Shown here one piece after another: positions 50,942-54,660 of a DNA stretch of 64,000 nucleotides. The DNA is from Pseudoalteromonas rubra. Its GTDB lineage: Bacteria > Pseudomonadota > Gammaproteobacteria > Enterobacterales > Alteromonadaceae. The stretch's first letter is position 1. The number at the start of each line of letters is the position of its first letter. The translations under genes were made by a program, and so were the position numbers. The notes beneath the pieces were generated by a model. It ran no database searches, was not told the DNA's origin, and worked only from the letters and a program-made list of their open reading frames with translations. The stretch spans positions 3,479,501-3,543,500 of the forward strand of contig NZ_CP013611.1 of assembly GCF_001482385.1 (NCBI RefSeq), given 5' to 3'.

Positions 50942-51439
50942 TTAATCCAGGCTGTCATAAATGCGTTTGTTCTCTTCTTTGCTCAACACCACCACTTCAG
51001 TGCCACAAATCATATCTTGTAGTGCGCGTTTGTGTTTAAAGTCGATAAGTACCAGCAGATTGCCCAGCCCAAGTAACGCACATAAGGCCCGTGCACTGGC
51101 TCTTGGCCAGCTGAGCAACTTGCCATCTGGCGTTTGTACTTTTAGCCGCCAGGCGCGCATGCCGATGGTCTGACCGCTTTTAACCCAAAAGTAAGCAAAA
51201 AACAGCACTGATACGACAATTAATACAAATCCGCGGAAAAATGACAACAGGGGAGTGGCCTGGATCAGCGCTGACACGTCTTCATGGTTTCCTTGAGAGA
51301 TCCAGCCCAAAGAGATAAAGCCTTCAACTATCAATAAAAAAACCACCATAGAAAGCATTGCAAATGCAATCACGACCAGACCATCATAGATCAGAGATGC
51401 AAGACGACGGGTTAAGCCCGCACGGGGAAACGAAGCCAT
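50942..51439 (-). CDS. RDD-family membrane protein
   Basis: 165-residue protein with three predicted membrane helices. RDD signature RLASLIYDGLVV, with the conserved Arg and Asp near the N-terminus, and the later GQTIGMRAWRLKV. RDD proteins are reported to act in ion transport or as accessory membrane proteins; nothing here settles it. Its position beside lptFG is common in gammaproteobacteria. Confidence 0.9.
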   Translation of the reverse strand: MASFPRAGLTRRLASLIYDGLVVIAFAMLSMVVFLLIVEGFISLGWISQGNHEDVSALIQATPLLSFFRGFVLIVVSVLFFAYFWVKSGQTIGMRAWRLKVQTPDGKLLSWPRASARALCALLGLGNLLVLIDFKHKRALQDMICGTEVVVLSKEENKRIYDSLD

Positions 51440-51567: not shown

Positions 51568-51595
51568 TTGCTACCCTCCCGCCAATTTGTATAAT
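51568..51595 (+). promoter_or_regulatory. Stable-RNA promoter of tRNA-Leu
   Basis: -35 TTGCTA (51568-51573), 16-bp spacer, perfect -10 TATAAT (51590-51595), followed by the G/C-rich discriminator GCTGGGC, as in stringently controlled tRNA promoters. A leader of about 85 bases precedes the tRNA. Confidence 0.75.
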
Positions 51596-51689
51596 GCTGG
51601 GCATAGAGACGAAGGCATATAAAACAAAGCCTAAGCTCAAAGTGGTTTTTCTTTATTTTCTCTTGGTTAGAAGATGAAAGAAAAATTAT

Positions 51690-51774
51690 GCCAGTGTGAT
51701 GGAATTGGTAGACATGACGGATTCAAAATCCGTTGCCTTCGGGCGTGGCGGTTCAAGTCCGCCCACTGGTACCA
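51690..51774 (+). tRNA. tRNA-Leu (anticodon CAA)
   Basis: An 85-nt class II tRNA with encoded CCA. Acceptor GCCAGTG / CACTGGT, anticodon arm ACGGA-TTCAAAA-TCCGT with anticodon CAA at 51724-51726, long variable arm TGCCTTCGGGCG, and T-arm GGCGG-TTCAAGT-CCGCC. It reads UUG codons. Its 3' end is unit 1 of the tandem array that follows. Confidence 0.95.
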
Positions 51775-52870
51775 CTTTTTATAACCCTGACCGAATAGGT
51801 CGGGGTTTTTTTATGCCTGAAATTCAAGGTAACATACGGAAGCAATGTGGTGTCGGACTTGAGCCCCACGCCGGGCGTGGCGCTGATGTAAGTTAAGAGT
51901 CCGCCCACTGGACCCACTTTTTATAACCCAGCTTTTTAGCTGGGTTTTTTTATTCCTAAATTTTAATATTTAATGGTGTGGAGTCGGACTTGAGCCCCAC
52001 GCCGGGCGTGGCACTGATGCAAGGTAAGAGTCCGCCCACTGGTACCACTTTTTATAACCCTGACCGAATAGGTCGGGGTTTTTTTATGCCTGAAATTCAA
52101 GGTAACATACGGAAGCAATGTGGTGTCGGACTTGAGCCCCACGCCGGGCGTGGCGCTGATGTAAGTTAAGAGTCCGCCCACTGGACCCACTTTTTATAAC
52201 CCTGACCGAATAGGTCGGGGTTTTTTTATGCCTGAAATTCAAGGTAACATACGGAAGCAATGTGGTGTCGGACTTGAGCCCCACGCCGGGCGTGGCGCTG
52301 ATGTAAGTTAAGAGTCCGCCCACTGGACCCACTTTTTATAACCCTGACCGAATAGGTCGGGTTTTTTTATGCCTGAAATTCAAGGTAACATACGGAAGCA
52401 ATGTGGTGTCGGACTTGAGCCCCACGCCGGGCGTGGCGCTGATGTAAGTTAAGAGTCCGCCCACTGGACCCACTTTTTATAACCCTGACCGAATAGGTCG
52501 GGGTTTTTTTATGCCTGAAATTCAAGGTAACATACGGAAGCAATGTGGTGTCGGACTTGAGCCCCACGCCGGGCGTGGCGCTGATGTAAGTTAAGAGTCC
52601 GCCCACTGGACCCACTTTTTATAACCCAGCTTTTTAGCTGGGTTTTTTTATTCCTAAATTTTAATATTTAATGGTGTGGAGTCGGACTTGAGCCCCACGC
52701 CGGGCGTGGCACTGATGCAAGGTAAGAGTCCGCCCACTGGACCCACTTTTTATAACCCAGTTTGATAACTTGGTTTTTTATGGCTATTTTCAGTAGAACA
52801 TTTCATTATTAGATTGTGTGGTGTGGAACCGAGTCGCACGCATAGTTTGGTATTGATTTCAATTTTCAGT
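51759..52870 (+). repeat. Tandem array of tRNA-Leu 3'-end-derived units (rtT-like)
   Basis: Seven clear units and one decayed unit, each beginning with the tRNA 3' stretch CCGCCCACTGG. Type A (141-142 bp: 51759-51900, 52032-52173, 52174-52315, 52316-52456, 52457-52598) has the terminator CCTGACCGAATAGGTCGGG followed by T7. Type B (131 bp: 51901-52031, 52599-52729) has CCCAGCTTTTTAGCTGGG. Unit 52730-52870 is degenerate. Each unit then carries a spacer and a potential hairpin (CGGACT pairs with AGTCCG; inside it CCACG pairs with CGTGG). Units 3 to 7 are almost identical. The E. coli tyrT locus has a similar array of 178-bp units that repeat part of the tRNA 3' end and yield rtT RNA. Reading frames on either strand of the array are a by-product of the repetition. 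Copy number probably changes by slippage or recombination. Confidence 0.85.
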
Positions 52871-53026
52871 TCACCCACTGGACTCTCTTTTATTAGTTTA
52901 GATAGTGTTGATTTCTAGTTGAACAATGCTTTAGGTGGGCTTGATATTTTTTATACATTATTTTTGTTCTTTTTATTTGGGGACAGGTTGTAAGGAATCA
53001 ATTATGGCAATGTGGCACAGGTTTAA

Positions 53027-53582: not shown

Positions 53583-54182
53583 TTAGGATGTTTTAGATTC
53601 TCGAAATTGAGCGTCTTTTGTTGAGCAGATCATCATTGTGATTAGTGCACCACAACAGAGTGCCCATGAGATATAAATTAACCCTTCAAAGTTGTCATAA
53701 ATAATTGTCCATGACTTCATGTTAAAGTAAGACCAGGCAACATTTTCAATTAAACCAAGTAAATAAATTATAGAAGTGTACATGTATAGCCAATGGAATA
53801 ATCCATCGAAAAGAGTTAGTTCAATGTTTTTTGAGTTAGAGAGTAGTCTTGATATCTGAACTCTGAAGATTAAGACCAGAACTGTTATTATCCCAGATAA
53901 TAATTGGAATCCATAAATGAGAGTTCCTTGCAACAGCTTATTGTCAGAAGGTGTTACGTAATTTATCAACCCAACTTTAAAAATGGCATAAGTAGTACCG
54001 TTTAGAATAAAAATAAACCCGGAAATATGGACCATATTAATGTCTTTTAGATAAACACCGTATAATGAACATAATAGAAGAAGTGATAAGTACAAGGGTG
54101 TTACCAGACTTTCATCCCACAACTGGATGTAGAAAAATGCCATCGAGGCAATACTGAGCAAAACCAAGTTTGAGAGTTTCAT
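53583..54182 (-). CDS. Multi-pass membrane protein of the XRE/GG-peptide operon
   Basis: A 199-residue hydrophobic protein with about six membrane helices (residues about 4-20, 28-45, 50-68, 85-108, 130-150, 165-185). No domain recognised. Its ATG at 54182 overlaps the stop of the peptide gene by one base (TAATG), so production is coupled. Position after a precursor-like peptide suggests immunity, sensing or export, but none is demonstrated. AT-rich. Confidence 0.6.
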   Translation of the reverse strand: MKLSNLVLLSIASMAFFYIQLWDESLVTPLYLSLLLLCSLYGVYLKDINMVHISGFIFILNGTTYAIFKVGLINYVTPSDNKLLQGTLIYGFQLLSGIITVLVLIFRVQISRLLSNSKNIELTLFDGLFHWLYMYTSIIYLLGLIENVAWSYFNMKSWTIIYDNFEGLIYISWALCCGALITMMICSTKDAQFRESKTS

Positions 54183-54406
54183 TATTTTTCCTTTTCAGCT
54201 TTAGCTCTTAAGAATGCAGTTTCCTCGGTCTCAATATTGGTACGTGCGGCTCTGGGGGGTTTAATTGCCGTTCCTCCAAATACGCACTCTAATTGGGTAG
54301 AAGATAACGATTTTATGTTAACATCAAGAGATCCTGCGCTTCGGCCATTCTGAGTGATTGGGGGTGCAGTCTTGCTTAAAAGTTTGGTTAAGAGTACCTT
54401 TTTCAT
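54182..54406 (-). CDS. Small peptide with double-glycine leader
   Basis: A 74-residue protein. Residues about 32-45 read KSLSSTQLECVFGG, the pattern of a double-glycine leader (LS..EL..V.GG-like, cleaved after GG by C39 peptidases), followed by a 29-residue hydrophilic and basic/acidic tail (TAIKPPRAARTN...EKEK) without Cys. The gene overlaps both neighbours by 1-4 bp. It may encode a secreted peptide (bacteriocin, pheromone or other RiPP-type product). No C39 peptidase or modification enzyme is encoded in the window. Could be an unrelated small protein in which GG is coincidence. Confidence 0.55.
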   Translation of the reverse strand: MKKVLLTKLLSKTAPPITQNGRSAGSLDVNIKSLSSTQLECVFGGTAIKPPRAARTNIETEETAFLRAKAEKEK

Positions 54407-54660
54407 TTTTCGTCATCCTGTAACTTTGACTCATTAGTGCTATTCATGTTGCTACTAATCAGTCGGATCTGATTGAGTAAAGTTCTAGTATCTATTTTAC
54501 AGTGCATAAACCACAGAAAAAGTTGCTTTGACTTGATATCGCTTACACCCAGTTCATAGTTACTAATTGTTTTACGATCACACTCTAACTTCCGCGCCAT
54601 TAGCTCTTGAGATATTCCTGCATTTTTCCTCATTGCTTTCAAATCATCGCCATTTATCAC
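54403..54660 (-). CDS. XRE-family regulator of the peptide operon
   Basis: An 85-residue protein with an HTH_3-type domain (about residues 5-40, LKAMRKNAGISQELMARKLECDRKTISNYELG). GTG start at 54660, with AAGGA some 10 bases upstream. Its stop overlaps the peptide start (ATGA). It probably controls its own operon. Confidence 0.75.
   Translation of the reverse strand: MINGDDLKAMRKNAGISQELMARKLECDRKTISNYELGVSDIKSKQLFLWFMHCKIDTRTLLNQIRLISSNMNSTNESKLQDDEK

Follow-up and report, generated by a model that had tools for sequence, protein, structure and literature searches.

A tandem array of tRNA-Leu(CAA) 3′ ends in Pseudoalteromonas that may supply backup terminators

Introduction

What purpose, if any, is served when a bacterial tRNA gene is followed by several copies of its own 3′ end? 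Tandem repeats of this kind are, to our knowledge, known chiefly from one operon of Escherichia coli. Bosl and Kersten are said to have described in 1991 the tyrT repeats of that species, in which the 3′ end of the tRNA recurs in a series of units downstream of the operon. A tRNA-Leu(CAA) gene of Pseudoalteromonas rubra, whose genome comprises 5.9 Mb in 3 contigs, is followed by an array that raises the same question, and we have analysed it within a window that is the whole 64,000-nucleotide stretch of DNA in which it lies.

Organization of the array

The tRNA-Leu(CAA) gene occupies positions 51690-51774 according to ARAGORN and Rfam (the Rfam call stops at 51771) and is followed at 51775-52886 by eight units of 131 or 141-142 bp, a repeat number that is taken from the 3-contig assembly and may be wrong. 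It is the sole tRNA found by ARAGORN in the window, where tRNA is also the sole Rfam family at gathering score. TRF, applied to the whole window, reports a single array (51756-52758, period 142, 7.2 copies, score 1565) as well as the doubled period. ARAGORN, Rfam, TRF and the eight 3′-end copies together confirm the original prediction of a tRNA-Leu followed by an array of its own 3′ end. The features of the locus are as follows.

51568..51595, plus strand: sigma-70-like site (TTGCTA, 16, TATAAT), a candidate only, with 10 of 12 matches in a consensus scan
51690..51774, plus strand: tRNA-Leu(CAA) (ARAGORN, Rfam RF00005)
51775..51916, plus strand: unit 1, 142 bp, containing the tRNA's own trailer and a type A terminator (51783-51807)
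51847..51872, plus strand: antisense arm of unit 1, a near-complement of the tRNA 3′ half
51873..51916, plus strand: sense arm of unit 1, read from the sequence as a variable-arm copy, the insert CTGATGTAAGTTAAG (51883-51897) and a tRNA 3′-end copy
51917..52047, plus strand: unit 2, 131 bp, type B terminator (51925-51946)
52048..52189, plus strand: unit 3, 142 bp, identical to unit 1, type A terminator (52056-52080)
52190..52331, plus strand: unit 4, 142 bp, identical to unit 1, type A terminator (52198-52222)
52332..52472, plus strand: unit 5, 141 bp, type A terminator minus one base (52343-52361)
52473..52614, plus strand: unit 6, 142 bp, identical to unit 1, type A terminator (52481-52505)
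52615..52745, plus strand: unit 7, 131 bp, 98% identical to unit 2, type B terminator (52623-52644)
52746..52886, plus strand: unit 8, 141 bp, decayed (68% identity to the rest), hairpin lost, degenerate terminator, weak promoter-like site (52762-52790, 9 of 12 matches)
51854, 51985, 52127, 52269, 52410, 52552, 52683 and 52825: starts of the arm core CGGACTTGAGCC in units 1 to 8 (worn in unit 8)

Every unit closes with a copy of the tRNA 3′ end, and successive units are spaced by 131, 142, 142, 141, 142, 131 and 141 bp. From 5′ to 3′ a unit consists of the trailer CTTTTTATAACCC with its type A or type B terminator, 27-49 bases of spacer, an arm that reads GTGG-TGT-CGGACTTGAGCCCCACGCC, the variable-arm piece GGGCGTGGCG, an insert, and the tRNA 3′ end AGTCCGCCCACTGG, which carries ACCCA or TACCA. 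The T-arm and the acceptor 3′ side are both reused, as had been predicted, but the variable-arm piece is retained as well and the insert takes the place of the 5′ part of the T-arm. The potential hairpin proposed for each unit contains a near-perfect inverted repeat of the 3′ half of the tRNA, which the prediction had missed, and the predicted fold of unit 8 does not rise above those of shuffles.

Units 1, 3, 4 and 6 are exactly identical, unit 5 is one base shorter, and this set, rather than copies 3-7 as first reported, makes up the near-identical units (99-100%). Units 2 and 7 are of a second type, 98% alike mutually and 79-81% like the A type. The assignment of a type A or B terminator to every unit holds for five A terminators, of which one is a base short, and for two B terminators, but not for unit 8. 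The view that the array is recent or homogenised agrees with the near identity of units 1 and 3-6, but the locus itself is old, because units recur at the same tRNA across Pseudoalteromonas. The antisense arm and the genome-wide copying of 3′ ends are features absent from the first reading.

Upstream of the tRNA are genes with Pfam domains of valyl-tRNA synthetase, leucyl aminopeptidase (M17), two LptF/LptG proteins and an RDD protein, and the genes downstream of the array are on the opposite strand. Three small genes lie at 53583-54660 of the window on the minus strand, one of them for an HTH regulator (Pfam). Within this segment are encoded a 74-residue protein with a VFGG stretch that by eye resembles a double-glycine leader, and a 199-residue protein; neither has a Pfam match.

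Intrinsic terminators in series

Between positions 51400 and 53300 there are 14 terminator-like sites, compared with a mean of 2.8 in shuffles. Seven are the terminators of units, six correspond to a short hairpin in the tRNA 3′-end copies, and one lies outside these elements on the other strand. Scan-recognised terminators therefore stand in tandem behind one gene in seven of the eight units. The consensus scan places no promoter-like site between 51596 and 52761, and so none in units 1-7; the region as a whole contains three such sites against 2.4 in shuffles, including the one in unit 8. Because nothing promoter-like lies between the site preceding the tRNA and that in unit 8, units 1-7 would be transcribed by readthrough. 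A motif, TTTTTTATGYCTGAA, is found right after terminators; with at most one mismatch it occurs at 21 places in the genome, 14 of them in four tandem arrays, and a reversed control gives 0.

From these comparisons we tentatively propose, with a probability of about 0.38, that the array consists of backup-terminator modules produced by tandem duplication of highly transcribed 3′ ends. Serial termination is the best-supported role among those proposed. Each module would be a tandem duplicate of the tRNA 3′ end, its trailer and an intrinsic terminator, such that a polymerase running past one terminator would meet the next and the opposite-strand genes downstream would be shielded from readthrough. 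The tRNA remnant in each module would be held non-functional by the T-arm insert and by folding against the inverted arm, and unequal recombination would alter copy number, homogenise units and swap terminator types. The parts of this proposal that are directly supported are the anatomy, the terminators in most units, the absence of promoter-like sites from units 1-7 and the 3′-end copies at other stable-RNA genes; serial action of these terminators in vivo, and its role in the persistence of the array, we infer.

Across 93 loci of the genus examined by script, an intrinsic terminator follows 90 tRNAs and 70 of the 92 units counted, at least three of the 22 remaining units not being true ones. 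The ends of the terminator stems differ (26 kinds at tRNAs, 13 at units), yet they stay stems. Within the clade of the window, the likeness between units of four arrays (L157, L061, L062 and L066) is 0.84-0.86 for trailer plus terminator and 0.84-0.90 for hairpin plus 3′ end, but only 0.60-0.73 for the intervening spacers (0.52-0.55 for shuffled spacers).

The same arrays might instead be a neutral by-product, a graveyard of functionless tRNA pieces that builds up where highly transcribed 3′ ends undergo tandem duplication and template switching. The shared pieces would be homogenised by recombination with the live tRNA, and the inverted arm by hairpin-templated correction. The near-palindrome of the T-arm could initiate template switching, which, if it applies here, would count for this account. 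The retention of terminators, and the greater likeness of terminators and hairpins in the window's clade, speak against neutrality, but spacers are at least as alike as trailer plus terminator in 7 of the 14 arrays measured, so recency can explain much of the terminator conservation. Since terminators are retained despite sequence change, and better than spacers in the window's clade, serial termination is favoured, with the neutral account, which we hold to be somewhat unlikely, close behind.

Copies of 3′ ends at other genes

Genes for tRNA, rRNA and EF-Tu (tuf) are highly transcribed, and comparable pieces stand behind all three kinds in this genome; this, together with the variation in the kind of piece from tRNA to tRNA, is in keeping with a neutral origin. 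A scan of the 1500 bases downstream of each of 114 tRNAs flagged 3′-end copies for Leu(CAA), Val(GAC), Val(TAC), Phe, Ser(GCT) and, provisionally, Gln; the Arg(ACG) and Met arrays lie below the scan threshold and were added by inspection. When sense copies are compared with shuffles, both Val, Ser and Phe stand out, Arg ties and Met does not. The resulting pseudo-tRNA arrays are those of Val(GAC) (L166), Phe (L170), Arg(ACG) (L171), Met (L176), Ser(GCT) (L178) and Val(TAC) (L185), and several of them carry an insert in the T-arm or the anticodon arm. By eye, no obvious intrinsic terminator is seen in the Val(GAC), Val(TAC) and Met arrays, which counts against the backup-terminator reading. Among the matches listed, the Arg array is strong in at least five of 60 genomes of the genus (G000, which is the host, G033, G036, G044 and G059). 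The Ser(GCT) array, as judged by eye, has an inverted arm and then a T-arm split by a long insert, which is the same plan as at Leu(CAA).

Five of the ten rRNA operon ends (L270, L275, L276, L277 and L278) carry one or more additional copies of the final 22 bases of 5S rRNA; a terminator lies within about 120 bases of the copy in only three of the five, a further point against backup termination. A tuf gene (EF-Tu, NCBIfam) is followed by a 350-bp array in which its own 3′ end and terminator are repeated (L020, 1057-1976, minus strand).

Two tandem arrays of other kinds were also noted in this genome. Three copies with a period of 320 lie at G000:C1:2612149-2612808 (L009, 1232-2167), each with a terminator and, by eye, a Fur-box-like GATAATCATTATC; from its sequence the triplet looks like a triplicated iron-regulated small RNA gene. 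A 192-bp array of 3.3 copies with terminator-like hairpins (L026, 1164-1807) lies upstream of a gene that by eye resembles a phage-tail baseplate gene.

An antisense arm that matches the tRNA

The arm in each unit is the reverse complement of the 3′ half of tRNA-Leu(CAA), with CGGACTTGAGCC-CCACGCC facing GGCGTGGCGGTTCAAGTCCG and only one bulge and one G·U pair. The best downstream antisense match exceeds those of all 300 dinucleotide shuffles in each of six Leu arrays tested, the margin being narrow in two of them, that of the window (16 against a shuffle maximum of 15) and that of L139 (13 against 12). When the 36 ends of tRNA transcription units in this genome are compared, the antisense match at Leu(CAA) is the strongest by a wide margin at -44.2 kcal/mol, followed by Ser(GCT) at -32.6 and the rest at -26.7 or weaker.

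This match raises the possibility of an anti-tRNA that is triggered by readthrough, in which the arm of the next unit would pair with the 3′ half of the tRNA, either within one transcript or in a free precursor. The long duplex would disrupt the cloverleaf and might be a substrate of RNase III, so that only correctly terminated transcripts would give tRNA, or else an excess of transcription would feed back on the tRNA. In the lowest-energy fold of the tRNA with unit 1, a prediction that disregards folding order and processing, the arm captures the 3′ half of its tRNA in 12 of the 16 species tested. The predicted duplex of the arm with the tRNA has -20.9 to -45.8 kcal/mol, against -12.9 to -29.7 kcal/mol for that with its own sense arm. 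However, the pairing is absent from the predicted fold in the other four species (L067, L121, L139 and L141), and at Ser(GCT) the predicted fold retains the cloverleaf, the arm not capturing the tRNA. Synthesis of the tRNA also precedes that of the arm, and the tRNA should already have folded and been processed by the time the arm is transcribed.

The arm was compared with its own tRNA in 68 units from 36 loci, these being distinct sequences picked by a pattern that requires the antisense arm and allows T or C at the T-loop base; units whose arm has been lost therefore fall outside the 68. The T-loop base agrees with that of the tRNA in 67 of them, the exception being L095, and the T-stem base agrees in 60 of the 67 units scored. 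Because the sense copy is without the T-loop, the hairpin of the unit itself does not account for the T-loop match, which would be expected if the arm pairs with the tRNA or was copied from it. Among the unit-bearing species on the tree the tRNA base changes three times and the unit base four times, and independent pairs never disagree, although there are only two on supported branches and three on all, too few for significance. These data are consistent with an arm that tracks its host tRNA between species, across few independent events. The disagreement in L095 and a third arm position, which tracks poorly (25 of 68 units), count against an acting anti-tRNA, and on balance we regard this explanation as doubtful. 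Serial termination, the reading that we prefer, leaves the tracking of the host T-loop by the arm unexplained.

Compensatory change within the unit hairpin was sought among 48 units, and RNAalifold did not recover the hairpin (-0.33 kcal/mol). By cell counts, 85.7% are paired against 84.1 in shuffles, cells with two-sided change number 14 against 8.1, and pairs with two-sided change number 3 against 3.2. Nor do 23 arrays reveal a significant decay with distance, the mean mismatches to the tRNA 3′ end being 3.43 in first, 2.85 in middle and 4.17 in last units (p=0.10).

Distribution in Pseudoalteromonas

All 99 Pseudoalteromonas genomes searched match a query of the tRNA and unit 1, with G003, G026 and G092 matching only from about query base 30 onwards, among the matches listed; the exact unit pattern is present in eight Pseudoalteromonas records. 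A covariance model made from 48 units, and hence built from such arrays, has matches in 69 of the 99 genomes at E≤0.01, but those at 28.8 bits are to the tRNA itself. At E≤1e-4 units are found in 41 of the 99 genomes, leaving 58 without. Those of G063, G011 and G086, and one match in G005, are on stretches without the tRNA, and were possibly displaced or cut off at contig ends.

Downstream DNA was sampled at 94 congener places and in three further stretches, some of which end at contig ends; left out were L065_1292 and L132, which have no true unit, L105, which has a mere vestige, L156, which is a second site of G095, and L134, which has another array type. The last of these, in G073, is a different array behind tRNA-Leu(CAA), with 179-bp units in which the anticodon arm is broken and the T-arm is intact in the first copy only. 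Unit length in the genus is mostly 116-143 bases, with a few units of 185-232. By a stricter pattern units are present in 35 of 94 species, which requires at least 18 gains or losses on a tree of the DNA upstream of the tRNA, some branches of which are long and weak. Such changes, together with the 58 genomes without a unit, indicate that the array is dispensable, and frequent gain and loss also suits a neutral origin.

Partial tRNA copies downstream of a tRNA recall the att blocks of integrated islands, and the 3′-end copies might accordingly be scars left by elements that integrate here, or decoy sites that attract them. Insertions are indeed present at this tRNA in L103 and L116, where several kilobases separate the tRNA from a second tRNA block (in L116 three units lie beyond the block), and L082 has an insertion between units 1 and 2 whose right end is a tRNA/unit hybrid. 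However, the right-end block of L103 and L116 begins in the anticodon loop, which is missing from the units, so the units are probably not simple att scars; on this argument scars and decoys were judged unlikely. The units, furthermore, repeat the trailer and terminator that they share with the tRNA, unlike the ends of unrelated elements, and this origin appears highly improbable. A phage source was rejected as well, as the 20 matching phage records cover only positions 1-85 of the query, which are the tRNA. Integron attC sites consist of RYYYAAC and GTTRRRY core sites in an imperfect inverted repeat; they were set aside after inspection by eye.

Arrays behind tRNA-Leu(UAA) outside the genus

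The pattern, which is common to many related species, recurs in another family. When 295 genomes of the order, representing 99 genera, were searched with the covariance model under strict filters that lose weak matches, only the host genome and G388 gave a match. G388 has three units behind a tRNA-Leu(UAA), which match that tRNA, in a Gly-Cys-Leu operon. This operon recalls glyW-cysT-leuZ, and the genome may, as a guess, be Shewanella. Among 30 loci from the family of G388, the 3′ end of tRNA-Leu(UAA) is copied in the next 1200 bases at 12. Three of these (L209, L210 and L233) show, by eye, an inverted arm together with a comparable insert, and several of the others retain part of the anticodon stem instead. 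On the reverse complement of L192 (G388), at about 920-1030, a pseudo-tRNA-Gly with inserts in the D-loop and T-loop lies within the Gly-Cys-Leu operon.

The ATA-YAAG insert before AGTCYG recurs throughout Pseudoalteromonas and, by eye, behind this different tRNA in another family, which is a point against the neutral account. Among L209, L210 and L233, the predicted fold has the arm capturing the tRNA only in L210, which weighs against an anti-tRNA. It seems improbable that the unit is a self-complementary anti-tRNA element, re-tuned to tRNA-Leu(CAA), tRNA-Leu(UAA) or tRNA-Ser(GCT), that inactivates its tRNA or feeds back upon readthrough.

Relation to known systems

The rtT RNA of E. coli is cited as a product of the tyrT operon that is set free from its transcript and is linked to the stringent response (PMC2965389, PMC4986893). 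The parallel with tyrT that had been drawn for this locus stands as an analogy, in that tandem units with a tRNA 3′ end lie downstream of a tRNA in both. The two differ, however, in tRNA and in unit: here the tRNA is Leu(CAA) rather than Tyr, and the units are marked by intrinsic terminators, by an insert in the T-arm and by the inverted 3′ half of the tRNA. The RtT family is not among the 20 Rfam matches listed for 51600-53000 at E≤1.

In the glyW-cysT-leuZ operon of E. coli, one excised trailer, 3′ETS-LeuZ, pairs with RyhB as a sponge (PMC6191717). Like this RNA, the units include a tRNA-Leu trailer with a terminator, but the known RNA is a single trailer, whereas in the present array the trailer recurs and is fused each time to a remnant of the tRNA. 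By analogy with the leuZ trailer and rtT, readthrough RNA might be cut at the trailers, and unit or trailer fragments might act as regulators or sponges. Such a role would fit the repetition of trailers, and also the other-family arrays, which alone lie behind the Leu(UAA) of a Gly-Cys-Leu operon, the window having a lone Leu(CAA). Against it, units 1-7 contain no promoter-like site in the consensus scan, and the small RNA families that Rfam matches are all below threshold (MicX at 28 bits against 75, anti-hemB at 25.7 against 49.5), and we think it quite unlikely. Among the best matches in the open-licence literature, no paper describes such arrays in Pseudoalteromonas or Shewanella, and the main text of PMC11882849 does not contain the word tRNA.

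Copying of 3′ ends is a habit of this genome, which extends to a number of its tRNA operons, to one in two of its rRNA operon ends and to one tuf gene, and at one tRNA the array has been retained in many species of a single genus. Should the antisense arm be active, it would give a tRNA gene a novel means of policing its own termination. If the arm is inert, the arrays would be a record of the duplication of highly transcribed 3′ ends.
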